Source of the DNA: Trichocoleus desertorum NBK24
GTDB taxonomy: Bacteria; Cyanobacteriota; Cyanobacteriia; FACHB-46
Direction: 5' to 3'
DNA length: 64,000 nucleotides
NCBI RefSeq assembly: GCF_030409055.1
Contig: NZ_CP116619.1
Location: forward strand, 1,583,628 to 1,647,627
Below are positions 20,197-33,966 of the stretch, piece after piece; within the stretch, counting starts at the first letter, position 1; each line of letters opens with the position of its first letter. The notes beneath the pieces are model-generated. The model had not been told where the DNA came from, ran no database searches, and was given only the letters and a program-made list of their open reading frames with translations. The position numbers were made by a program, and so were the translations under genes.

Positions 20197-21711
20197 ATGG
20201 GCAGCAAAGGCGATCGCGTCGTCGTGGGAGGAGCAGGAATTGGGGGCCTGACCGCAGCCGCATTACTGGCTCATCGCGGTTATCAAGTTTTAGTTTTAGA
20301 TCAAGCTTTATTGCCGGGGGGTTGTGCCTCTACGTTCAAGCGACGTGGCTTTACCTTTGATGTAGGGGCCACTCAAGTTGCGGGGTTAGAACCGGGTGGC
20401 ATTCACCATCGGATTTTTAGCGAGTTGGAGATTGAGCTACCGGAAGCGACTCCCTGCGACCCTGCCTGTGCGGTCTATCTTCCAGGTGAAAGCGACCCCA
20501 TCAGTGTTTGGCGCGATCGCGATCAGTGGCAAGCCGAGCGCCAACAACAATTTCCTGGGAGTGAGCCATTTTGGCAGCTTTTAGCAGATTTATTTCGCTA
20601 CAGTTGGGCGTTTCAAGGTCGCGATCCCATTCTGCCGCCACGCAGTATCTGGGATTTTTGGCAGTTAACCAAAGCGGTGCGTCCCGATACGCTTCTAACG
20701 CTGCCCCACACCTTTTCAACTGTGGGGGATGCGTTGCGTGGCTATCGCCTCGCCGATAACCTACGGCTGCGCACCTTCTTAGACTTGCAACTGAAGCTGT
20801 ACTCTCAAGTCGATGCGGAAAATACGGCTCTCCTTTATGCGGCCACAGCCTTGGGAGTTTCTCAAGCGCCCCACGGGTTGTATCACTTGCAGGGCAGTAT
20901 GCAGGTGTTGAGCGATCGCCTGGTGCAAGCCCTAGAGCGTGATGGGGGGCGTTTGCTAATGCGCCATAGTGTCGAGCAGATTCATGTAGAAGCAGGCGTG
21001 GTAAAGGCGGTCACAATTCGCAACCAGAAAACAGATGAGACCTGGACAGAACCCGCTGATCAGGTGGTGGCAAATGTGACCGTACAAAACTTGGTGCCCT
21101 TGCTAGGCACAGCCATGCCCTCTGGTTATCAGCAACGAGTCCATAAATTGCCTCAAGCTTCTGGAGCTTTTGTAATTTATCTCGGTGTGGATCAAAGTGC
21201 CATTCCTGCGGGCTGCCCGCCCCATCTCCAGTTTCTCTACGATTACGATGGGCCAATTGGGGAAAATAACTCGTTGTTTGTTTCAGTCAGTCATCCGGGT
21301 GATGGGCGCGCTCCTGAGGGTCAGGCGACGATTGTAGCTTCTTCTTTTACCAATCCGACGCTGTGGTGGCAGTGTCCTGACTATGAAAGTTTGAAGCAAC
21401 AGTACACCGAAACTGCGATCGCTCGACTGGGGCAATTCTTCCACCTCACTCCAGAAACCATCTTGCACCAGGAAGCAGCGACACCCCGAACTTTTGCTCA
21501 CTACACCGGACGCGAGCAAGGCATTGTGGGCGGGATTGGGCAACGAGTCAGCACCTTCGGCCCCTTTGGGTTCGCCAACCGCACGCCGATTCAGAAGCTC
21601 TGGTTGGTGGGCGACTCGACTCATCCTGGTGAAGGTACTGCGGGAGTTAGTTACTCAGCCCTGACAGTTGTTCGACAAATTGAGGCACACTCAAAGGAGG
21701 GCAGGTCATAG
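20197..21711 (+). CDS. crtD: Carotenoid 3',4'-desaturase CrtD
   Basis: 504 residues. FAD-binding motif at the N terminus (VVVGGAGIGGLTAAALLA, then VLDQ), followed by PGGCASTFKRRGFTFDVGA, typical of carotenoid desaturases. C-terminal FAD-contact block LWLVGDSTHPGEGTAGVSYS. Overall sequence fits the cyanobacterial CrtD group, which desaturates the C-3',4' bond on the way to myxol glycosides (myxoxanthophyll). Membrane-associated. A GT41 gene follows after 35 bp on the same strand, so crtD may be the first gene of a four-gene operon reaching 30717. Confidence 0.9.
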   Translation: MGSKGDRVVVGGAGIGGLTAAALLAHRGYQVLVLDQALLPGGCASTFKRRGFTFDVGATQVAGLEPGGIHHRIFSELEIELPEATPCDPACAVYLPGESDPISVWRDRDQWQAERQQQFPGSEPFWQLLADLFRYSWAFQGRDPILPPRSIWDFWQLTKAVRPDTLLTLPHTFSTVGDALRGYRLADNLRLRTFLDLQLKLYSQVDAENTALLYAATALGVSQAPHGLYHLQGSMQVLSDRLVQALERDGGRLLMRHSVEQIHVEAGVVKAVTIRNQKTDETWTEPADQVVANVTVQNLVPLLGTAMPSGYQQRVHKLPQASGAFVIYLGVDQSAIPAGCPPHLQFLYDYDGPIGENNSLFVSVSHPGDGRAPEGQATIVASSFTNPTLWWQCPDYESLKQQYTETAIARLGQFFHLTPETILHQEAATPRTFAHYTGREQGIVGGIGQRVSTFGPFGFANRTPIQKLWLVGDSTHPGEGTAGVSYSALTVVRQIEAHSKEGRS

Positions 21712-21746: not shown

Positions 21747-24074
21747 ATGGGGACAACTTGGGCAGCGCTGCATCGTGAGGCAGGTTCCCTCCAAGCACAG
21801 GGACGCTTTCAGGAAGCAGAGCAGCAATATCAAGCTATTTTGCAAGCACAGAGTCAGGCAGACTCAGTTTGGCAGGACTTAGGCTGGCTCTACTACCAAA
21901 TGGGGCAATACCCATTAGCCGCCCAAGCTCTGCTGAAAGCTCTAGAACTCAATCGACTGCAAGCCAACTATCACTACAAGTTGGGGTTAGTTTGGGAAAA
22001 ACTGGGCGATCGCACTCAGGCCATGCAAGCCCACCGCAACGCGATTCAATTGGATGAACAACTGAGTGACGCCTACAGCGAGCTAGGACGGTTATTAGTG
22101 GCATCCGGCAAGCTGGATGAAGCCGAGCAAGTGTATCAGCAAGCGATCGCCGTTCATCCCCAGCAAGCTCAGAGCTATTTTCAGCTAGGTCAAGTTTTAG
22201 GGGCTAAGGCCCAACTGCCAGAAGCGATTAAAGCCTATGAGGTCGCTCACCAACTCAATCCTGCGGACTCTCGGATTTTGCAGGAATTGGGTCAAGCTCT
22301 GGAACTGCAAGCCAGCCGCTACCAAGCACGAGCCGCTTTTTACTTGGGGGCCAGTTTCTACTGCCAAGAAAAATATGCAGCCGCCGCAGAGCAATACCAA
22401 GAATTTATCCACATCCCCAATCCAGAAGCAGCAGCGGCAACGATGCAGCGGGCCTATAAATATTTGGGAGAGTGCTTTCAAAAACTAGAGCAGCCTACTG
22501 AGGCGATCGCTCTCTATGAACAAGGCATTCAACGCTACCCGGAAGCTGAGGCGTTTTACTACGAGCTGATAGCGCTGCTGCAAAATTCTGGGCAAGTTGA
22601 GCAGGCAATCGTGGTTGCAACTCAAGGCTTACAACAGTTGCCCGACGATCTGCATTTGCTCCGAGCCAAGCACTTGATGCTACCCATTTTGTATCGAAAT
22701 TCCGCAGAAATTGAGCAATGGAGAAAGCATTTTATTTCAGGATTAAATCACTTAGCTCAAACTCTCAGCTTAGACACTCCTGAAGCTCAGAAAAAAGCTC
22801 TTTTAGGGATTGGCTACCAAACCAATTTTTACCTCCAATATCAAGGAAAAGATGATTTAGCGCTACAGGTTCAGTATGGGCAACTAATGCACCAAATCAT
22901 GGCTGTCAACTATCCAGATTGGGTAAAACCAATTCCAATTCAAAGCCCCAGGCCAGAGACAAATCGACCACAAAAAATTCGAGTGGGTTATATTTCTATC
23001 TTGTTGTGGCAGCATACAGTAGGCAAACTCTTTATCAATTGGATTCGCTACCATGACCCAGAGAGATTCGAGCTGTACTGCTATCACCTAGGTCAGCCAG
23101 TTGACCAAGCAACAGAACAAATTCGGCAACATAGCCATCAATTTCATCACCTACCCCTACAAGAAGTTTTAGACACAGATTTCCAAACGGTAGGTAGAAA
23201 AATTCGGGCCGATCAACTCGACATCTTGGTATTTCTAGATATTGGCATGCATCCCTTTGTGACCTCACTTGCTGGATTGCGACTGGCTCCGATTCAATGC
23301 GTAACTTGGGGGCATCCCATTACATCCGGTTCCCCCACCATCGATTATTTCCTCTCTAGCGATTTGATGGAACCAGAAGCAGCAGAAGCTCACTATTCAG
23401 AAAAGTTAGTTCGTCTACCCAATATTGGCATTAGTTACAGCAAACCAGAACTGCCACCTTTATCCAAATCACGGGCAGATTTCCAGATTCGACCAGACGC
23501 GATCGCCTATTTGTGTTGCCAATCCTTATTCAAATATCTACCTCAATACGACTATATTTTTCCAGTCATCGCTCAGCGAGTCCCACAAGCCCAATTTATT
23601 TTTATTACTAGTTTTAATCCTGCACTCACTCAGCAATTTGAACAACGCTTAGAAACCGCCTTTACTCAATGTCAACTTAACTACCGATCGCATTGCCTCA
23701 TTTTGCCAAAGCAGAGCCAAACAGACTACTGGCAAATCAATCTGCTCTCCGATATTTTTCTAGATACTTTTTCCTGGTCGGGGGGCAATACCACCTTAGA
23801 GGCGATCCCTTGCAGCTTACCCATCGTGACTTGCCCAGGCGAGTTTATGCGGGGACGACATTCTTACGCAATTTTGCAGATGCTGGGTGTAACTGCAACA
23901 ATTGCTAAAGACGAAGCAACATACATCGAAATTGCCGTTAAATTAGGTTTGGATTGCGATTGGCGAAATAAGATTATTCGGGAAATGCGCGATCGCCAAC
24001 CCTTTCTTTATGATGATTTAGCTTGTGTCAAGGCTTTAGAAAATTTCTATCGACGAGTCATTGAGAATCACTAA
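21747..24074 (+). CDS. TPR-GT41 glycosyltransferase (SPINDLY/OGT-like), first of three
   Basis: 775 residues. Residues about 1-300 are TPRs (ADSVWQDLGWLYYQMGQYPLA and similar 34-residue units). A helical connector follows, then a GT41 domain (about 410-775) starting KIRVGYISILLWQHTVGKLF. Markers: His codon at 23013-23015 in WQHTVG, PIQCVTWGHPITSG, the UDP-contacting Lys in QSLFKYLPQYD and the Asp in FLDTFSWSGGNTTLEA. Eukaryotic and some bacterial relatives transfer GlcNAc or fucose to Ser/Thr or glucose to Asn; donor and acceptor are unknown here. Cytosolic. Paralogous to the next two genes over most of its length; it lies 35 bp after crtD and 66 bp before the second copy. Confidence 0.9.
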   Translation: MGTTWAALHREAGSLQAQGRFQEAEQQYQAILQAQSQADSVWQDLGWLYYQMGQYPLAAQALLKALELNRLQANYHYKLGLVWEKLGDRTQAMQAHRNAIQLDEQLSDAYSELGRLLVASGKLDEAEQVYQQAIAVHPQQAQSYFQLGQVLGAKAQLPEAIKAYEVAHQLNPADSRILQELGQALELQASRYQARAAFYLGASFYCQEKYAAAAEQYQEFIHIPNPEAAAATMQRAYKYLGECFQKLEQPTEAIALYEQGIQRYPEAEAFYYELIALLQNSGQVEQAIVVATQGLQQLPDDLHLLRAKHLMLPILYRNSAEIEQWRKHFISGLNHLAQTLSLDTPEAQKKALLGIGYQTNFYLQYQGKDDLALQVQYGQLMHQIMAVNYPDWVKPIPIQSPRPETNRPQKIRVGYISILLWQHTVGKLFINWIRYHDPERFELYCYHLGQPVDQATEQIRQHSHQFHHLPLQEVLDTDFQTVGRKIRADQLDILVFLDIGMHPFVTSLAGLRLAPIQCVTWGHPITSGSPTIDYFLSSDLMEPEAAEAHYSEKLVRLPNIGISYSKPELPPLSKSRADFQIRPDAIAYLCCQSLFKYLPQYDYIFPVIAQRVPQAQFIFITSFNPALTQQFEQRLETAFTQCQLNYRSHCLILPKQSQTDYWQINLLSDIFLDTFSWSGGNTTLEAIPCSLPIVTCPGEFMRGRHSYAILQMLGVTATIAKDEATYIEIAVKLGLDCDWRNKIIREMRDRQPFLYDDLACVKALENFYRRVIENH

Positions 24075-24140: not shown

Positions 24141-26411
24141 ATGGGAACTTGGCAAAATTTATACCAAGAAGCAACGGCTCTACAAAAGCAAAACTCCTTT
24201 ACAGAAGCAGAAAAAAAATATCGACAAGCTCTACAATTAGACCCAAAACAGGGAGAAATTTGGAGTGATTTAGGGCATCTTTATTATCAAATTAGTCGCT
24301 CTCAAGATGCTTTATCAATGCTCTTACAAGCACTAGAAGTAAGCCGTTTTGTCCCTCTCTATCACTACCGCTTGGGGCTTGTGTTTGAGCAACTTCAGCA
24401 AATCGAGCCAGCGATTCAAGCTTATCAAAATACAATCAAACTAGATGCTAAATGGATAGAAGCTTACTTAGCATTAGGGCGCATCTTTTTAGCACAAGCT
24501 CAATATGATCCTGCAATTCATAACTACCTGATCGCTCATGATCTCAATCCTCGTGACGCCAAAATCCTGGTTGAATTAGGGCAAGCTTACGAATCGAAAG
24601 CCCATGACTCAGAGCTAAAATCTGCCTTCTACTTAGGCTTTAGTTATTACCGCCAGGGCAATTATCTAGCAGCCAGTGAACAGTATCAGAAGTTTTTAGA
24701 TTCCCCTACACCTGGAATTGCATCGGAAGCAATCCAGCGGGTTTATCGTTATCTGGGCGACTCGCTGCAACACCTGAATCAACCGGAGCGTACTGCCGAA
24801 GTCTACCAGGCTGCGACCCAACTTTACCCTCAAAGTGCTGACTTTCACATTAATTTGATTGCGGCCTTACGGACTAGCGGCAACACCTCAGCTGCGATCG
24901 CCGCCGCCAATACAGCGGCCCAATTTTTTCCGGATATGGTACTGTTCGAGCGCGATCGCCACCTCATTTTGCCTATTCTTTATGAGTCAACCGGAGAAAT
25001 CCAAGTTTATCGCCAGCAATTTACCCAGGGTTTGGCTCAACTGATTCAACAAATTCAGTCAAGTCCTAATACTAATAGTAAAGAAGTTCGCGCCAATCTC
25101 TTAAAAAGCCTAGGGGCACAAACCAATTTTTATTTACATTATCAAGGCCAGAATGATGTTGAATTGCAAGTTCAATTCTCTCAGCTATTACACGAATTAA
25201 TGTCTGCTCAGTATCCTCAATGGGCAAAATCTTTAACAACTAAGTCATTAGATAGCAACAGAAAAATTCGTGTCGGATATATTTCCACTTGTATGTGGAA
25301 GCAAACGGTTGGAGTGCTATTTTCTGGCTGGCTACGATATTGCGATCGCCAGAAATTTGAGGTTTATTCCTATCACTTACATCCCCATTCAGATGAGTAT
25401 ACAGAAAAGTTCAAGGCTTCTAGTGATGTTTTTCGCCACTTGCCTGTAAAGGAAGCGATCGAGTTGGATTATATCCAAGGGGTTGATGAACAAATCAGAA
25501 AAGATGAGCTTGATATTTTGGTATTTCTGGATGTGGGAATGCATCCTTATATGAGTTTATTTTCTAGTTTACGTCTGGCCCCAGTTCAGTGTGTTACTTG
25601 GGGGCATCCAGTGACTACAGGTTCTCCCAGCATCGACTATTTCCTATCGAGTGAATTGATGGAGCCTGAAGATGCAGACGAACATTATTCAGAAAAGCTT
25701 ATACGTCTACCTAATATTAGTATTGCTTACAGTCCACCTAACTTGAGCGAAGTCACAAAAACTCGTGCAGACTTTGGCTTAAGAGAGGATGCAGTTCTAT
25801 ACCTATCCTGCCAAACTCTATTCAAATATTTGCCTCAGTATGATTATATTTTTGCTGCGATCGCTCAACAGGTGCCACAAGCCCAATTTGCATTTATCGC
25901 CCACAAAAGTGCCGCAATTACTAATAAATTCTCTCAACGTTTAGAGCGAGCCTTTACAGAGTATGGCCTTAAAAGTACTGATTATTGCGTCATTTTACCC
26001 CGCCAGGGACACAGTAGCTACTTAAGTTTAAATCGTATTGCAGATGTATTTCTAGATACCTTTAGTTGGTCGGGAGGTAATACGGCACTAGAGGCGATTG
26101 CTTGTCATTTACCTATTGTGACTTGCCCCGGACAAATGATGCGGAGTCGTCATTCTTTTGGCATCTTAAAGCAGTTGGGAATCAGCGAAACAACTGCTGC
26201 TTCCGAAGCAGAATACATTGAAATTGCCGCTCGTTTAGGCTTGGAACCAAAATGGCGTCATCAAATTTCCCAAAGAATCCATGCTGTCCACCCGCGTTTG
26301 TATGACGATATTACCTGTGTAAAGGCATTGGAAAATTTTTATCAGCAGGTTGTTCATCAAGCTCTTATAGGTAAGTCTCCAAACAATTTTGAATTCAAAA
26401 ACAATGACTAA
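24141..26411 (+). CDS. TPR-GT41 glycosyltransferase, second of three, with an active-site His replaced
   Basis: 756 residues, same plan as the preceding gene: TPRs (about 1-280), connector, GT41 domain (about 372-745). The Lys of QTLFKYLPQYD and the Asp of FLDTFSWSGGNTALEA are kept. The motif read WQHTVGKLF in the first copy is here WKQTVGVLF, so Gln (codon 25302-25304) stands where the other two have His. That His aligns by eye with the conserved active-site His of OGT-like enzymes, so this copy may be altered in activity or specificity. The gene looks AT-richer than its neighbours. Its last 8 bases overlap the start of the fusion gene (ATGACTAA), which suggests translational coupling. Confidence 0.9.
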   Translation: MGTWQNLYQEATALQKQNSFTEAEKKYRQALQLDPKQGEIWSDLGHLYYQISRSQDALSMLLQALEVSRFVPLYHYRLGLVFEQLQQIEPAIQAYQNTIKLDAKWIEAYLALGRIFLAQAQYDPAIHNYLIAHDLNPRDAKILVELGQAYESKAHDSELKSAFYLGFSYYRQGNYLAASEQYQKFLDSPTPGIASEAIQRVYRYLGDSLQHLNQPERTAEVYQAATQLYPQSADFHINLIAALRTSGNTSAAIAAANTAAQFFPDMVLFERDRHLILPILYESTGEIQVYRQQFTQGLAQLIQQIQSSPNTNSKEVRANLLKSLGAQTNFYLHYQGQNDVELQVQFSQLLHELMSAQYPQWAKSLTTKSLDSNRKIRVGYISTCMWKQTVGVLFSGWLRYCDRQKFEVYSYHLHPHSDEYTEKFKASSDVFRHLPVKEAIELDYIQGVDEQIRKDELDILVFLDVGMHPYMSLFSSLRLAPVQCVTWGHPVTTGSPSIDYFLSSELMEPEDADEHYSEKLIRLPNISIAYSPPNLSEVTKTRADFGLREDAVLYLSCQTLFKYLPQYDYIFAAIAQQVPQAQFAFIAHKSAAITNKFSQRLERAFTEYGLKSTDYCVILPRQGHSSYLSLNRIADVFLDTFSWSGGNTALEAIACHLPIVTCPGQMMRSRHSFGILKQLGISETTAASEAEYIEIAARLGLEPKWRHQISQRIHAVHPRLYDDITCVKALENFYQQVVHQALIGKSPNNFEFKNND

Positions 26412-29400
26412 TCAGTTCATTCAGCAAACAGCAAATCCCTTAAAGCTATATCTAGGCTGTGGTCGTAAAATCAAACCAGGATATATCAATGTTGATCAAT
26501 ATTTAGTAGGTCCAAACATTACCCAAATGGATGTTTTTAATCTGCCATTTGGCCCGAATAGCGTGGATGAAATTTTTACCGAGCACATGCTAGAGCATCT
26601 CAGTAAGCACGAGGTACCTCTAGTATTAAAGGAGTGGGCTAGAGTCCTCAAGGCAGAGGGCCAGCTCGTAATGAATTTGCCCAACTTAGAATGGTGCTTG
26701 CGGCAATGGCTTGACAAACCAGAATCAGAGCGCTGGGGCTGGCAGCTTGATACTATTTTTGGTCTTCAAAGCCATCCGGGTGAGTTTCATAAAACTGGTT
26801 TTACCGCTCCTCGATTACGTCAATTACTCGCAAAAGCTGGCTTTCGTGACATTAGTATTGCAGATTGTTGGTCCCACGAACAAAGCTGTTTTTGGATAGA
26901 AGCTAGTAAAGCTCCTAAAAATATAAGTTCCTTAGACAAAGTGGCTTATTCCACTAGTATCGTTGTACCCTGGTGGGATCACGGTGAGCTATTAGAAATT
27001 TGGGAACGCAACTTAAAGCATTTGTCTAACATTGAAATTATTTTTGTTGACAACGGTAGTCAAACCCCCACTAGAGATGCCTTAAAGAAATTTTGTCAAA
27101 CTCATAATATTAAGCTAATTCGCAATTCTGAGAACCGAGGTTTTGCCGCAGCAAACAATCAAGGTATTCAAGTCGCCAGCAATGAGTATATTCTATTTCT
27201 TAATAACGACATTGAGGTGCTAACTGCTCCAGTTCCCTACCTATGTCAGCTTGCTGGAGAAGGAGTGGCAGGCCCAGGTCCTAAACAAACTGAAACCGGA
27301 GAAGTTTATTTAGAAGGCTGGGCTTTGTGTGTCAAAAAACAGGTTTTAGAAAGCTTTTGTGGCTGGTGCGAAGACTATGGACCAGGATATTGGGATGATG
27401 TTGACTTCTGCCATCGCGCTAAATCCAGTGGGTATTCCCTCACTCCAATTCCTGAAGATATTAAACATCAATTATTTACTCACAGCCAAAATACAACAGG
27501 TCGAGATGGGCGACTTAATCAATTAAAATTACATGTCCGTAATCGCGGCCTTTTTATTCAAAAGTATTACATGAATAAAATGCCTAAGATTGTCATTGAC
27601 GGCATGTTTTTCCAGTTTTCCCATACTGGTATTGCTCGTGTTTGGTCAACTTTATTAACAGAATGGTCTAGGAGCAATTTTGCTGATTATCTTTTAGTGT
27701 TAGACCGCAATGGTTCTGCACCGAGAGTGCCTGGCATTCGCTACCGTCTCATCCCACCCTATAGCTATAGCAATGCGGCTCTCGATCGCGCCATCCTCCA
27801 GCAAATTTGTGATGAGGAGCAGGCCAGCTTATTCATTTCCACTTATTACACAACTCCGATTTCAACGCCTTCGGTATTCATGGCTTACGATATGATTCCG
27901 GAGCAGATTGGGTGGAATGTAGATGAGTTTATGTGGCGGGCAAAACATTATGCTATTCAACATGCCGATCGCTACATTGCAATTTCGCAAAATACTGCGC
28001 GAGACTTAGTTAAGCTCTTTCCCTACATTTCTCCGGAAGCGATTGCCGTTGCACCTTGTGGAGTACAACCCAGCTTTGTCCCGGCTGATGATATAGAAGT
28101 GGATGGATTTAAGCAGAAACACCAGATTACGCGGCCCTATTTCTTGATGGTCGGCACGAGAAACGGCTACAAGAATACTATTTTGTTCTGTAAAGCCTTT
28201 GCGAAACTCACGAATGCTGCCGACTTCAGTATTGTTTGTACGGGCGGCAACCCTACTCTAGAGCCTGAGCTGAGTGCTTGCTTACCTGTGAGTACGAGAG
28301 TTCACCTTCTGCAACTCAATGATGCCGAATTACGAACTGCCTATGCTGGGGCGATCGCGCTCGTATACCCCTCTCAGTATGAAGGCTTTGGGCTACCTAT
28401 CTTAGAAGCAATGGCTTGTGGTTGCCCTGTCATTACTTGCCCTAATAGCTCCATCCCAGAGGTAGCAGGTCAAGCTGCCCTCTACGTGAATGACTCGGAT
28501 GTTGCAGGGCTAACGGCTGCTCTGCAAAATGTGCAGAATTCAGCTTTACGTAACTCCTTGACCAAAGCAGGCTTAGAGCAGGCTAAACAATTCTCCTGGC
28601 TCCAAATGGCGAAAACTGTGAGTGAGACGTTGATGATAGCGGCTCAGAAAGTAACTCCCTTGACACCCTACAGCGCTCCAATGACGATCGCAGCGGTGGA
28701 CAATCGACGCTTGATTGCTTTAGATAATGACTCTGATAGCAATGATAGTGGCCCTAATAACAGCCCTAGCAACCAAGCGACTCCGCCATCTCAGCCTGTA
28801 GCGCTCCCTTTACCCACTCCACCAGACAGCCGCGAAGCTTATGAGCAGTATCAACAGATGGGCAGAAGCTTGTTAGCCGAGCACCAACTCGAAGATGCGA
28901 TTCAAGCTTTTGACAAAGCCCATCAGTTAAGCCCGCGCGATCCAGTGGCTTTGCATGATTTAGGCAGAGCTTACAAAGCCAAGGCAAATGAATCTCGCAT
29001 GCGGGCTGACTTTTACCTAGGGTTTGCTTTATATCGTCAAGGCAAATATCAAGCTGCGATCGAGCGGTACCAGAAATTCTTAGCAAGCGACAAAGTAGGG
29101 GTTGCCCCGGAGTTGATTCAGCGAGTTTACAAGTGCTTGGGTGACTGCTTCCAGCGCTTGGGCCAGTACGACGCAGCCATTCAGGTTTACCAGGAAGCGG
29201 TACAGGCTTACCCGATCGCCAAGCTTTATTTTGACCTCATTTCTGCCCTGCGAGACAACGGCCAAACTGAAGCCGCGATCGCCACTGCCACTCAAGCCTT
29301 GAGCTTAATCCCCAACGATTTTTCGCTCAAGTTAGCTCAGCAGCTTACCTTGCCAATTCTGTACGAAAGTGTGGCAGAAATTGCCGAGACTCGGCGGTAC

Positions 29401-30717
29401 TTTACTCAAGGTTTAGCCAAGATTAGCGCTGAACTCGATCTATCCACCCCAGAAGCCAGCCAAAATGCTCTCACCGGGATTAGCCGTTACGCTAACTTCT
29501 ATCTGGCGTACCAAGGTGAGAACGATCGCCCGCTGCAACAAGAATATGGGCTGCTGGTGCATCAAATTATGGCGACCAACTACCCACAGTGGGTGCAAGA
29601 TCGAGCCATGCCAGCTTTAAGCCCTAGTGGCAAAATTCGCATTGGCTATCTCTCCGACTGCCTCCGACAGCACACGGTAGGCAAATTATTTTTGGGCTGG
29701 TTGCGCCATTGCGATCGCCAAAAGTTTGAAATCTATTGCTACTCGCTGAATCGAGAACAGGACGCGATCGCCCAGGAAATTCAACGCCATAGCGATGCCT
29801 TTCATCAAATTTCTGGGGATTTAGAGGGCATGTGTCAGCAGATTTTGAACGATGAGTTGCATGTGCTGACGTTTCTCGATATTGGCATGCACCCGAAAGC
29901 TAGCCAGATTGCCAGTTTACGCTTGGCTCCAGTGCAGTGTATGACTTGGGGGCATCCGGTGACATCGGGCCTACCCACGGTTGACTACTTTCTTTCTAGC
30001 GAGCTGATGGAGCCAGAAAACGGTGAGGAACACTACTCCGAGCAATTGGTGCGGCTACCACAAATTGGCATTGCTTACGCCAAGCCCTCTATCCCAGAAC
30101 TAACCAAAACCAGAGCCGATTTTGGGTTGCACCCCGATGCGGTGGTGTATTTGTCTTGCCAGTCGCTGTTCAAGTACTTGCCACAGTATGATTTTGTGTT
30201 TGCCGCAATCGCGCAACAAGTTCCCCAGGCCCAGTTTGCTTTTCTGGCTCACTTTAGCGCTGCTGTCACCGACAAGTTTCGCCAGCGCTTACAACGAGCT
30301 TTCGCAGCGGTGGGCTTAAATAGCGAGGACTATTGCATAATTTTGTCTCGACAAAACCAAGCGGGTTATTTGCAGCTCAATCTATTGTCCGACATCTTTT
30401 TGGATACTTTTGCCTGGTCCGGCGGCAACACCACCTTAGAGGCGATCGCTTGCAACTTACCCGTTGTCACTTGTCCCAGCGAATTTATGCGCGGGCGACA
30501 TGCGGCGGGAATTCTACAAGCTTTGGGCATCCCTGAAGCGATCGCAGCCAACCCAGAGGATTATGTAGCGATCGCCGTGAAGTTAGGGCTGGATTCTGCG
30601 TGGCGGCAGGAGATGAGACAGCGCGTCACCCAAGGCCATGCTCAGCTTTTTGATGATCCAGGCTGTGTCAGAGCGCTAGAAGCGTTTTATCAGCAGGTGG
30701 TACAGGCAGAAGCTTAA
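26404..30717 (+). CDS. Giant fusion: SAM methyltransferase, GT2, GT4, TPR, GT41
   Basis: 1437 residues from ATG 26404, inside the end of the previous gene. Modules in order: class I methyltransferase (about 10-170; LYLGCGRKIKPGYINVD, then DEIFTEHMLEHL); GT2-type glycosyltransferase (about 180-390; SIVVPWWDHGELLEIW, IIFVDNGS, ENRGFAAANNQGI, LFLNNDIEV); GT4-type glycosyltransferase (about 393-745; FLMVGTRNGYKN, YPSQYEGFGLPILEAMACG); an Asn/Ser/Pro-rich linker (about 775-810); TPRs (about 812-985); GT41 (about 1075-1437; RQHTVGKLF with His, LFKYLPQYD, FLDTFAWSGGNT). Three transferases and a methyltransferase in one chain suggest stepwise building of a capped, possibly methylated glycan. No signal peptide. 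The methyltransferase-GT2 part lacks HIP1 sites, unlike the 3' half, suggesting a composite origin. Confidence 0.9.
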   Translation: MTNQFIQQTANPLKLYLGCGRKIKPGYINVDQYLVGPNITQMDVFNLPFGPNSVDEIFTEHMLEHLSKHEVPLVLKEWARVLKAEGQLVMNLPNLEWCLRQWLDKPESERWGWQLDTIFGLQSHPGEFHKTGFTAPRLRQLLAKAGFRDISIADCWSHEQSCFWIEASKAPKNISSLDKVAYSTSIVVPWWDHGELLEIWERNLKHLSNIEIIFVDNGSQTPTRDALKKFCQTHNIKLIRNSENRGFAAANNQGIQVASNEYILFLNNDIEVLTAPVPYLCQLAGEGVAGPGPKQTETGEVYLEGWALCVKKQVLESFCGWCEDYGPGYWDDVDFCHRAKSSGYSLTPIPEDIKHQLFTHSQNTTGRDGRLNQLKLHVRNRGLFIQKYYMNKMPKIVIDGMFFQFSHTGIARVWSTLLTEWSRSNFADYLLVLDRNGSAPRVPGIRYRLIPPYSYSNAALDRAILQQICDEEQASLFISTYYTTPISTPSVFMAYDMIPEQIGWNVDEFMWRAKHYAIQHADRYIAISQNTARDLVKLFPYISPEAIAVAPCGVQPSFVPADDIEVDGFKQKHQITRPYFLMVGTRNGYKNTILFCKAFAKLTNAADFSIVCTGGNPTLEPELSACLPVSTRVHLLQLNDAELRTAYAGAIALVYPSQYEGFGLPILEAMACGCPVITCPNSSIPEVAGQAALYVNDSDVAGLTAALQNVQNSALRNSLTKAGLEQAKQFSWLQMAKTVSETLMIAAQKVTPLTPYSAPMTIAAVDNRRLIALDNDSDSNDSGPNNSPSNQATPPSQPVALPLPTPPDSREAYEQYQQMGRSLLAEHQLEDAIQAFDKAHQLSPRDPVALHDLGRAYKAKANESRMRADFYLGFALYRQGKYQAAIERYQKFLASDKVGVAPELIQRVYKCLGDCFQRLGQYDAAIQVYQEAVQAYPIAKLYFDLISALRDNGQTEAAIATATQALSLIPNDFSLKLAQQLTLPILYESVAEIAETRRYFTQGLAKISAELDLSTPEASQNALTGISRYANFYLAYQGENDRPLQQEYGLLVHQIMATNYPQWVQDRAMPALSPSGKIRIGYLSDCLRQHTVGKLFLGWLRHCDRQKFEIYCYSLNREQDAIAQEIQRHSDAFHQISGDLEGMCQQILNDELHVLTFLDIGMHPKASQIASLRLAPVQCMTWGHPVTSGLPTVDYFLSSELMEPENGEEHYSEQLVRLPQIGIAYAKPSIPELTKTRADFGLHPDAVVYLSCQSLFKYLPQYDFVFAAIAQQVPQAQFAFLAHFSAAVTDKFRQRLQRAFAAVGLNSEDYCIILSRQNQAGYLQLNLLSDIFLDTFAWSGGNTTLEAIACNLPVVTCPSEFMRGRHAAGILQALGIPEAIAANPEDYVAIAVKLGLDSAWRQEMRQRVTQGHAQLFDDPGCVRALEAFYQQVVQAEA

Positions 30718-30768: not shown

Positions 30769-32865
30769 CTAACGCCCCGGATCTATAGGGCGAATTTGCG
30801 GGGGACTGGGTTCTAGGAGAACTCTAGGTGGTTCGGGGGGCTGGAGAGCCTTCCGCCACTCGCCAATTTGAAGTTGGGCTGGGGCATAGGCTTCGGTGCG
30901 AGGGGGAACCTTTTGGGCGATCGCGATCGCGCTGGGCAAGTTGTAATTCGCTTGATTTTGCGCCAAGACTAAAATGGATTGGCTCCACTGATTGATGGCC
31001 GCTTCGGCATCAACTCGCAAAGAACTAGAGGCAGGAATTTGATCCGCTTTTTGAATGGCTGCGGCTAGGGCATCTGGGGTCGCGGCAGTCGCTAAGCTCT
31101 GGGCTTCCTGCCAATTTTGCTCTGCCTGAATTTGCCCCCGCCAAGAGCGAATTTCATCTTGGGCTTCACCATAGAGAGAACGATTAGAAGTAATTTGTTC
31201 AGCCGTGGCGATCGCACTGGGCAGATCTCCAGCACTTGCGAAAGCGCGAGCTTGGTCTAGGTAGGGTTGGTCTTGCTGCCGTTGTATCTCTCGCGTCCAC
31301 TGACCAATCTTGTCTTGAGCTTCTCTGTAAAGGGCACGACCTGGCCCCACTTGGCTCGCCTCATTGATCGCGGATTGCAGAGAATTGGCATCTCCAGCGA
31401 GGGCATATTCATCGGCTCGATCTAGGTAAGGCCGATCTTCTGTGGTTTCAACTTGACCGCGCCAACGTCCAATTTCCTTCTGGGCTTCATCCCAGCGAGG
31501 ATTCGAGCGATTGACCAAGCTGGCCTCAGCGATCGCCGCGCCTAAGGCATTGGGAGTCCCCCCTTGCGCCAATTGACGCGCCCGCTCCAGATGAGCGACG
31601 CCCTCAATTTCTCGTTGCCAGCGGGTAATCAACTGCTGGGCTCTGGCGTACATGGGACGCTTGGAATCAAGTTTTTGCGCTTGAGCGATCGCTGCTTCTA
31701 GATCTACGACTGTGCCTTGCCATGCCTGAGCTTGAGCATCCGCTAGATCAATAAAGTCTTGGGCTTCTGCTTCTAAGTTGGCACTTTCAGGGATCTTGCG
31801 GGCAATGGCGATCGCTTCTGTGGCATTGCGCTGCTCTAGGGTGGCTTGAGCCAAGTTCAACATTTTGCGACCAAACTTGCCAATCGCCGTTTGCGCCTCT
31901 TTGTAAATGTAGCTGTTAGGGCCAATAGACTCAGCCAACTTCACAGCTTTGAGCAAGTTGTCAAGACCGCCAATATCCGCCAGTTCTTCGGCTTTGGCTA
32001 ACTTGTTGCCTTCTTCCCTAGCGACCCGAATCCGTTCATTCAGTTCTTGATATTTTGTGGTTTCCCAATAGGTATTACCCACATAAAGCAGTCGCACCGC
32101 TTCAGTAAATGCTTGGTGCCACTTGCGCTCTCGTAGGGCTAATTCCGATTTTTGATAAATCGCCTCTGCATTCTGCCAGACCGATTGCCAGCGATCGATG
32201 CGTTCATTCACCAGAGCATGAGCTGCTGTGTTTTCTGGAATCTTGCGGGCAGTCGCGATCGCCTCGTCAAGCTTGCCCGCATTGAAAGAAGTTTCGGCCA
32301 AGTTCAAAATATCCGATGACCACTGTTGAATCGAGCGGTCAATATCGGAGCGCAATGGGTGATCGCTAGGCAAACTATTCACGAGCGCGATCGCTTCTAG
32401 CAAGTTCTTCACCGTTTGCTTATTAGCTGCAACTTGGGCGCAGTAGAGCCGCATGGAGGCAGAAGCCATCGGCCAGAAAATCGAAGGGCAATTGGGTAGC
32501 GCCGGCGATCGCACCAATAGCGCCACAGAGAAAGCTGCTGCTCCTCCCGTCAAGAGCAGGGTAGTTAGGCCCCAAAACCGTAAACTGGTGGGTAGTTTTA
32601 ATCCTTTGCGATCGCGAGAAGTGGGTGACTTAGCCAGCGGTGGAGTGGCAGGCCCTGATACTGCATAGACAGGTTGCTCCGTCTGGCCCAAGGACGAAAC
32701 GACAGGCCGAACTGAGTCTGGAGGCACAGCTCTGACTACAGGACGCGGCAGCGGATTAGATGAGGGACGAGGAGCAGGCGGGCGATCTGGCAAATTGCTT
32801 GAATTCTTCCTCCGGGGAGGCCGATCGGCTGGCCTACGGTCTGGAGTTCCACGATCTCTGGTCAT
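30769..32865 (-). CDS. Single-pass membrane protein with tandem helical repeats
   Basis: 698 residues from ATG 32865 (AGGTGG just upstream; a GTG at 32886 is an alternative). Residues 1-90 are Arg/Pro-rich and cytosolic by charge. One membrane helix (WGLTTLLLTGGAAAFSVALL, about 100-120) follows. The rest, about 570 residues, is built of roughly ten repeats of 45-50 residues with the pattern L..AI..A..IP..S..Y..AQ..I..W (for example LPSAIATAEQITSNRSLYGE and NLPSAIAIAQKVPPRTEAYA), a TPR-like solenoid. The C terminus is Pro-rich. Some cyanobacterial homologues carry the label 'chromosome segregation ATPase', but no P-loop is visible. Probably a scaffold; function unknown. Confidence 0.75.
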   Translation of the reverse strand: MTRDRGTPDRRPADRPPRRKNSSNLPDRPPAPRPSSNPLPRPVVRAVPPDSVRPVVSSLGQTEQPVYAVSGPATPPLAKSPTSRDRKGLKLPTSLRFWGLTTLLLTGGAAAFSVALLVRSPALPNCPSIFWPMASASMRLYCAQVAANKQTVKNLLEAIALVNSLPSDHPLRSDIDRSIQQWSSDILNLAETSFNAGKLDEAIATARKIPENTAAHALVNERIDRWQSVWQNAEAIYQKSELALRERKWHQAFTEAVRLLYVGNTYWETTKYQELNERIRVAREEGNKLAKAEELADIGGLDNLLKAVKLAESIGPNSYIYKEAQTAIGKFGRKMLNLAQATLEQRNATEAIAIARKIPESANLEAEAQDFIDLADAQAQAWQGTVVDLEAAIAQAQKLDSKRPMYARAQQLITRWQREIEGVAHLERARQLAQGGTPNALGAAIAEASLVNRSNPRWDEAQKEIGRWRGQVETTEDRPYLDRADEYALAGDANSLQSAINEASQVGPGRALYREAQDKIGQWTREIQRQQDQPYLDQARAFASAGDLPSAIATAEQITSNRSLYGEAQDEIRSWRGQIQAEQNWQEAQSLATAATPDALAAAIQKADQIPASSSLRVDAEAAINQWSQSILVLAQNQANYNLPSAIAIAQKVPPRTEAYAPAQLQIGEWRKALQPPEPPRVLLEPSPPQIRPIDPGR

Positions 32866-33069
32866 AGCCCACCTACCAACTCCCACCTAACAACTCGTAG
32901 CGCAACGGCTCTGGCTACCCCAAAGCAAATGCAGTAGTTGCCATCCTACCCTCCTCAAGCCCTAAAAAGTCAAATTTTTAGTTTTAGATGACCCTAACAC
33001 TTAAATGATACGCGGCCTGATAACCCTTCTAAAGTAATTCAAACCTCCTCATCCATCACCAGGATGCTA

Positions 33070-33966
33070 CTAAGATTCTGCTCGCAATTCTAAAATTAGT
33101 TGAGCTAGATGATCGCTGCTGGCTTGATAAACCTCGTTGCAGAAGTGGCAAGTCGCTTCAGCGCCATCGTCTTTTTCGATCATGTCTTGCAGTTCTGTTT
33201 CTCCCAGAATCTTGAGCGCGCCTAACATGCGATCGAAGGAGCAACCACAATGAAACCGCACCAACTGAGTTTCTGGGAAGATTTCTAATCCCATATCACC
33301 CAGCAGTTGCTCGAACATTTCTGGCAGCGTTTTGCCTGCTTGCAACAGGGGGGTAAACCCAGCAAGCTGACCAATGCGAGACTCTAGAGTTGCCACTAGT
33401 TCTTCGTCGCGAGCCGCTTTAGGCAGAACTTGGATCAGTAATCCACCTGATGCAGTCACCCCTTCTGCACCGACAAACACACCCACAACCAAGGCTGAGG
33501 GGGTTTGCTCGGAAGTAACTAAATAATTGGCAATATCCTCCCCAACCTCACCAGACACAATCTCTACAGTGCTGGAGTAGGGATAGCCGTAACCCACATC
33601 CCGAACCACGTACACGTAACCTTCGTGACCGACAGCCCCGCCAACATCCAATTTGCCTTTGGCATTAGGAGGTAGCTCAATCTCTGGATTATCTACATAT
33701 CCCCGCACTGTACCGTCTAAGCCCGCATCCACTAAAACGCCACCCAAAGGCCCATTGCCTCGAATGCGAATGTTGATTCGCGATCCAGGCCGTTTCATAC
33801 TTGATGCCAACAGCAAACCAGATGACATGGTACGCCCAAGAGCCGCTGTCGCCACATAGGAAAGCTGATGCCGCTGTCTAGCTTCCTCGGTAAGACGAGT
33901 GGTGATGACCCCTACCGCCCGAATGCCTCCATCAGCCGCAGTTGCCCGCATTAACTGATCCGCCAT
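33070..33966 (-). CDS. hslO: Hsp33 redox-regulated chaperone
   Basis: 298 residues, full length. The N-terminal domain has the family blocks RGNGPLGGVLVDA and VGHEGYVYVVRD, and the YSSTVEIVSGEVGEDIANYL helix. The C-terminal zinc redox switch is intact: C-x-C in FHCGCSFDR (about 240-242) and CxxC in ATCHFCNEVY (about 272-275). Under oxidation the cysteines form disulfides, zinc is released and the chaperone becomes active. Cytosolic. Monocistronic by position, 204 bp from the divergent SRPBCC-like gene. Confidence 0.97.
   Translation of the reverse strand: MADQLMRATAADGGIRAVGVITTRLTEEARQRHQLSYVATAALGRTMSSGLLLASSMKRPGSRINIRIRGNGPLGGVLVDAGLDGTVRGYVDNPEIELPPNAKGKLDVGGAVGHEGYVYVVRDVGYGYPYSSTVEIVSGEVGEDIANYLVTSEQTPSALVVGVFVGAEGVTASGGLLIQVLPKAARDEELVATLESRIGQLAGFTPLLQAGKTLPEMFEQLLGDMGLEIFPETQLVRFHCGCSFDRMLGALKILGETELQDMIEKDDGAEATCHFCNEVYQASSDHLAQLILELRAES

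Follow-up and report, generated by a model that had tools for sequence, protein, structure and literature searches.

Introduction

In many cyanobacteria the ogt gene lies beside pilA, and a review reports that Ogt acts in the glycosylation of PilA (PMC12288463). Single chains that join an N-terminal methyltransferase to two glycosyltransferase modules have been described elsewhere, as WsaE of Geobacillus stearothermophilus and ORF6-O7 of Klebsiella pneumoniae, and according to the accounts cited both act on lipid-linked chains and the methyl group forms the chain end (PMC2943079, PMC11231755). Here we describe a gene that has features of both kinds. It lies in a 64,000-nucleotide stretch of the genome of Trichocoleus desertorum NBK24 (the window) and encodes a 1437-residue protein in which a methyltransferase (MT), a GT2 module, a GT4 module, a linker, TPR repeats and a GT41 domain follow one another. 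Like OGT, XcOGT, TtOGT and SPINDLY, it has TPR repeats followed by a GT41 domain of GT-B fold and keeps the catalytic lysine, but it is only about 20-24% identical to them, carries three more catalytic modules in front, and has GGNTT-E at the donor site where OGT-type enzymes have HTTG-D. The cyanobacterial Ogt/OgtA enzymes are also GT41 proteins, located in the cytosol, and GT4-core enzymes related to the window GT4 module adjoin OgtA-like genes, whereas the window GT41 domain belongs to another clade, sits in the crtD slot and is joined to MT, GT2 and GT4 modules. WsaE and ORF6-O7 share with it one MT and two glycosyltransferase modules in a single chain, a likeness of module layout; they work on lipid-linked chains, and their descriptions mention no GT41 or TPR parts. 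The HMW1C-like NGT enzymes are also GT41 proteins (Z 34.4 with AaNGT, rmsd 4.4, 503 residues aligned), but at 14-16% identity, and the window enzyme differs from them in having TPR repeats.

We tentatively propose, with a confidence a little short of an even chance, that the window enzyme is a cytosolic assembly line for a protein glycan contained in one chain, that its front cassette is exchangeable, and that its acceptor may be a pilin or a different surface protein that is exported.

An intact modular gene between crtD and hsp33

Positions 26404-30717 (+) of the window form a single reading frame of 1437 codons plus a stop, with no internal stop. With its ATG at 26404 the gene has an overlap of 8 nt with the end of the preceding gene, and a TTG five codons earlier is an alternative start. 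The preliminary description had read MT, GT2, GT4, TPR and GT41 modules in this one frame, and Pfam bears this out by placing each of them above its curated cut-off, the GT2 and GT4 modules included. It had also raised frameshifts or assembly joins at the module boundaries. The frame could then be an artefact of assembly or a fusion in decay, yet a separate assembly from the same genus (G001) encodes a protein that matches residues 1-1435 at 90% identity, and the dN/dS values between the two genes (MT 0.069, GT2 0.065, GT4 0.066, TPR 0.053, GT41 0.043, against 0.56 in the linker) indicate purifying selection on all modules and relaxed constraint on the linker. We therefore reject an artefact, which is refuted as far as sequence can do so and retains a vanishingly small probability. 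The G+C content of the MT-GT2 part is low (0.41-0.44), which is no proof of foreign origin because the preceding tandem gene is equally low (0.39-0.48). An Rfam search across the window gave no match, and among the viral contigs searched no relative was confirmed.

The gene is the last of three same-strand tandem TPR-GT41 genes that follow crtD, in a slot that ends at hsp33. The left border, crtD (20197-21711, +), encodes a carotenoid C-3',4' desaturase (NCBIfam TIGR02733, 786.9 bits against a cut-off of 549.7) and is syntenic in G001, in the third species of the genus (G002) and in a member of another family (G020). The first and second tandem genes, both assigned by Pfam, encode TPR-GT41 proteins of 775 residues (21747-24074, +) and 756 residues (24141-26411, +), the latter overlapping the start of the modular gene. 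To the right lie a gene for a 705-residue protein (30769-32886, -), kept in G001, G002 and G020, and hsp33 (33070-33966, -), identified by Pfam, NCBIfam and synteny. The 705-residue protein has no Pfam or NCBIfam match, and in each of the four genomes compared for synteny its gene lies next to the GT41 genes. The host genome (5.46 Mb, one contig) encodes five GT41 proteins, seen as ten matches of two lobes each.

The same neighbours enclose a GT41 array in G001 and G002 and one plain TPR-GT41 gene, for a protein of 767 residues, in G020. In an 85-row GT41 tree, the domain from the window groups with the copies of its genus, with G020 and with one row from G007, a five-row set with support 98/92. 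On this synteny and this tree, the TPR-GT41 part is probably old at the crtD-hsp33 slot and the front modules an addition of this lineage.

The TPR-GT41 half

The TPR repeats (residues 813-985; 28840-29358, +) match Pfam TPR families, with TPR_2 at 57.2 bits against a cut-off of 27, and form helical repeats in the predicted structure. The GT41 catalytic domain (residues 1070-1435; 29611-30708, +) scores 137.1 bits with Glyco_transf_41 (PF13844, cut-off 25) in two stretches that correspond to the two lobes, and has the OGT fold. The model of residues 785-1437 has a mean pLDDT of 93.6 and aligns with XcOGT (2xgm_B: Z 38.5, rmsd 6.4, 527 residues aligned), TtOGT (5djs_A: Z 37.4, rmsd 4.0, 500 residues aligned) and SPY (Z 35.2). 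Its K1257 is the equivalent of the catalytic Lys842 of human OGT and is a lysine in all 58 aligned GT41 proteins, these being the 58 of 74 listed rows that the structure alignment took in. With both lobes above cut-off and the catalytic lysine in place, the domain belongs to CAZy family GT41 (PF13844).

Assignment within the family is narrower. Gly1341-Asn1342-Thr1343 stands where the oxyanion-hole run of OGT has His920-Thr921-Thr922, and as this run is absent we do not file the enzyme as an OGT; since the equivalents of His920-Thr921 are Gly-Asn, the donor may not be UDP-GlcNAc. TtOGT is reported also to depart at the oxyanion hole, with Cys in place of His920 (PMC4683255). Membership of the HMW1C-like NGT group was rejected too, as NCBIfam NF049992 gave 55.6 bits and its cut-off is 1000.

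The front modules

The predicted class I MT module (residues 1-175, YLGCG...INVD; 26404-26928, +) matches Methyltransf_11 at 36.8 bits (cut-off 21.2), the match being confined to the second half of the profile. The predicted structure is poor here, with ten-residue means of 25-49 over residues 1-180, and three of the 22 alignment rows reach the MT; as the fold is not confidently predicted, the assignment is one of sequence. The module is 68% identical to the MT of a 1643-residue enzyme in G117.

GT4-family enzymes are retaining and GT2-family enzymes inverting. The GT2 module (residues 180-392; 26941-27579, +) matches Glycos_transf_2 over residues 186-275 (65.3 bits, cut-off 23.3), and its acidic motif, DDVDF, is read from the sequence only. 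It is 57% identical to the GT2 modules of G362 and of G011, and BLAST at 1e-5 gave no match to it in the 1643-residue enzyme of G117. The GT4 module (residues 393-750; 27580-28653, +) matches Glyco_trans_1_4 (89.1 bits, cut-off 27) and Glyco_transf_4 (31.9 bits, cut-off 28.5) and has an MshA-like fold (MshA 3c4q, E 1.1e-17). Its E-x7-E pair is kept in the family alignment, E668 being invariant and E660 present in at least 90%. In the GT4 tree it groups with G117 and G098 (support 86/95, not one of the starred branches).

Cassette exchange within the genus

The G001 protein has all five modules, with identities of 92% in MT, 95% in GT2 and 92% in GT4. The G002 protein, of 1974 residues, begins with different front modules and continues with GT4 (78% identical), TPR (93%) and GT41 (91%). 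By the synonymous divergence of the flanking genes the window lies nearer to G002 (dS 0.24-0.57) than to G001 (dS 0.64-1.09). To the left of about residue 800 of the modular protein the window is near G001 (dS 0.22-1.00) and far from G002 (dS at least 1.01 or saturated, or no homologous columns), and to the right the order is reversed to that of the flanks (dS 0.13-0.80 with G002, 0.54-2.27 with G001). The flip falls at the fast-evolving linker (residues 751-812; 28654-28839, +), which is 65% identical to that of G001 and 27% identical, with 22 gaps, to that of G002. Because synonymous divergence changes over at this point, the comparison indicates that the front cassette has been exchanged at the linker. 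The dS values of MT (0.53) and GT2 (0.34) against G001 are below those of the flanking genes, which suggests that the exchange came after the species had parted, slower synonymous change being the alternative. For each of the three front modules of G002 the best relatives belong to GT4-bearing enzymes of other genomes, at 71% identity (G051), 50% (G019) and, for the third, 64-68%; the 64% match of this third module is to the pilin-locus enzyme of our own host.

Distribution of the architecture

The MT and GT2 modules of the window occur in full length in two of 388 genomes of the class, the host and G001. Relatives of the GT4 module are more widespread (55 matches in 45 of 292 genomes of the phylum) and mostly lie in long reading frames, of at least 700 residues in 46 of the 55 and at least 1400 in 21, and P0001 has matches at E 1e-100 or better in 120 of the 388 class genomes. 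The longest such frame, 3268 residues, is at G540:C1:3145359-3146438. Module orders akin to that of the window enzyme include MT11-GT2-GT4-GT41 with no TPR found (G117), Methyltransf_24-Methyltransf_23-GT2-GT4-TPR-GT41 (MT24 and MT23; G362, the TPR being detected by a custom profile and not by Pfam at 1e-5) and FkbM-GT4-TPR-GT41 (G086). The same modules that are fused in L086 and L087 occur as adjacent genes in L090 and L145, and GT4 and TPR-GT41 are adjacent genes in G170 and G128.

A single origin of the joining of GT4 to GT41 was considered and rejected, since an AU test rejects a clade that unites the three window-type with the seven Nostocales-type rows (p 1.6e-5). These groups were defined with the tree already in view, and two of the seven Nostocales-type rows, L086 and L087, are fused, the others adjacent. 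The tree and test thus indicate that the joining arose more than once. A third, long-branched GT41 group (L088, L092-L096) is joined to GT4 in five of its six rows, its position in the tree being uncertain.

Pilin neighbourhood of the GT4 family

Of the 30 GT4 frames that score at least 560 bits, 21 have both a pilin gene no more than 17 kb away and an OgtA-like GT41 gene no more than 14 kb away (21 of all 38 frames of at least 480 bits, the 560-bit cut having been set after the scores were seen). The 30 come from stretches picked for their resemblance to P0001 and are not a random sample; in stretches picked by the GT4 match alone (L147, L149-L162) a pilin is present in 6 of 15. None of the eight frames scoring from 480 up to 560 bits has a pilin nearby, and of the 27 stretches used as controls, 380 kb in which no such GT4 or GT41 gene occurs, one contains a pilin. 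Pilins were recognised from a motif pattern, the three checked by Pfam being Pilin_GH, and "OgtA-like" denotes similarity to the GT41 protein of the host's own pilin locus, the published OgtA sequence not being the yardstick. Of the nine high-scoring frames without a near pilin, three belong to the genus's own crtD slots and two lie on short contigs (L050, L064); L065 has an OgtA-like GT41 gene 340 bp from GT4 with no pilin called, and L088, L094 and L155 have neither gene near GT4. The MT-GT2-GT4-GT41 enzyme of G117 and the TPR-bearing enzyme of G362 each adjoin an OgtA-like GT41 gene and a pilin, at 5.7 kb and 3.1 kb, respectively.

It counts against the reading proposed here that the window gene itself does not stand beside a pilin as in a pilA-ogt locus, whereas most of its high-scoring GT4 relatives do; the nearest pilin found is 0.9 Mb away, which leaves the gene outside the 21. 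The host moreover already has a separate pilin locus with OgtA-like GT41 and GT4 genes (L062), in which the pilin is 44 bp from the GT41 gene. The pilin loci of the host, G001 and G002 each encode an 856-residue Wzy_C protein, and that of G001 also a Bac_transf protein. The host's Wzy_C gene (L062:2817-5387, +) lies near the pilin, OgtA-like GT41 and GT4 genes, and its product is possibly an O-oligosaccharyltransferase.

Wzy_C and, in G001, Bac_transf proteins are usual parts of a lipid-linked route and count against an assembly line on protein. The window chain could instead be two enzymes in one chain with separate substrates, the MT-GT2-GT4 part extending a polyprenol-linked glycan that a PglL-like Wzy_C ligase moves to pilin or another target, and the TPR-GT41 part adding single sugars to cytosolic proteins. 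This is a serious rival because of the Wzy_C protein in the pilin locus of the genus and because WsaE and ORF6-O7, the best-known chains that combine MT and glycosyltransferase modules, are reported to use lipid carriers (PMC2943079, PMC11231755); it also agrees with the occurrence of the GT4 enzyme and TPR-GT41 as separate genes in several genomes (L090, L145, L089). We nevertheless regard it as unlikely, for GT4 and GT41 came together repeatedly and the genus kept the join through the exchange of its cassette. The preliminary description had already suggested an assembly line that begins on a protein or peptide, lengthens a glycan and caps it with a methyl group. That suggestion is supported in part, since the assembly-line reading gains support from the occurrence of the same modules either fused or adjacent and from the pilin and OgtA-like neighbourhood of the GT4 family.

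Proposed mechanism

In the mechanism that we put forward, a protein would dock at the TPR-GT41 end ahead of its export and, in the manner of OGT and cyanobacterial Ogt, receive its first sugar there on Ser or Thr. The tethered GT4 and GT2 modules would then extend the sugar chain, and the methyltransferase would methylate it and perhaps cap it. The TPR-GT41 half would be native to the crtD-hsp33 slot and the MT-GT2-GT4 half the exchangeable cassette that sets the glycan, such that a swap at the linker changes the glycan and keeps the docking end. The likeliest kind of acceptor would be an exported surface protein, whether a type IV pilin or some other. The chemistry, the order of the steps, the sugars and the acceptor are those that we infer.

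Close to this reading is one in which the first sugar does not come from the GT41 module, which instead docks a protein already primed by another GT41 enzyme (a tandem mate or an OgtA-like one), or adds an inner sugar, with the front modules finishing the chain. Two plain TPR-GT41 genes lie directly upstream, OgtA-like GT41 genes adjoin the GT4 enzymes of pilin loci, and the GT41 enzyme ApHMW1C is reported to transfer sugar both onto Asn and onto another sugar (PMC3012730), all of which would suit such a role; the fused GT41 domain, however, is the most constrained module and keeps its catalytic lysine, and we hold a non-initiating role to be rather improbable.

If the assembly-line reading is true, the module order in one gene would predict the glycan of a glycoprotein, which is rare in bacterial glycobiology, and the role of cyanobacterial Ogt would widen from the addition of single sugars to a share in a machine that builds chains. 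A natural swap experiment is at hand within the genus, with the same slot, the same GT41 end and two different front cassettes, and the class is large, since frames with the GT4 module reach 3268 residues. A more general and more speculative proposal, to which we give less credence, is that protein glycans of cyanobacteria are made on template-like assembly lines, each a single chain, which trade modules across species and chromosomal slots as in NRPS/PKS evolution. A fixed TPR-GT41 end for docking the protein would be combined with interchangeable front cassettes, and a single recombination in a linker would rewrite the surface glycan, for example in escape from phages or grazers. The parts are known. 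For the joining of GT41 to modules that build and methylate a chain, for the repeated origin of this joining and for the cassette exchange, our search, limited to the open-access literature, returned no description, nor did it return one of such an enzyme class.

Other GT41 architectures in cyanobacteria

The preliminary description held that GT41 proteins normally consist of TPR repeats and a catalytic domain only. This does not hold in cyanobacteria, where many GT41 frames carry further modules, among them a C-terminal MT, an N-terminal Methyltransf_24-like stretch, a second GT41 domain and a GT4 module in front. TPR-GT41 proteins of about 1180-1220 residues with a C-terminal MT are encoded at L058:6678-10331 (G007), L096:4696-8349 (G122), L098:6990-10520 (G189) and L099:5860-9393 (G141). 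The N-terminal 225 residues of many 1000-residue TPR-GT41 proteins resemble Methyltransf_24 (L068:3841-4515, -; also L051, L052, L053 and L058), which scored above its cut-off in L068 alone of four tested, and L058 reached 33.9 bits in another search. Two GT41 domains share one frame at L091:3389-8881 (1830 residues), L102:4691-9421 (1576 residues) and L151:9317-13843 (1508 residues). In Microcystis, tandem GT41 frames of about 1240-1270 residues lie at L044:1848-9440 and L045:5294-12872, and in one frame of each pair TPR repeats flank the GT41 domain on both sides.
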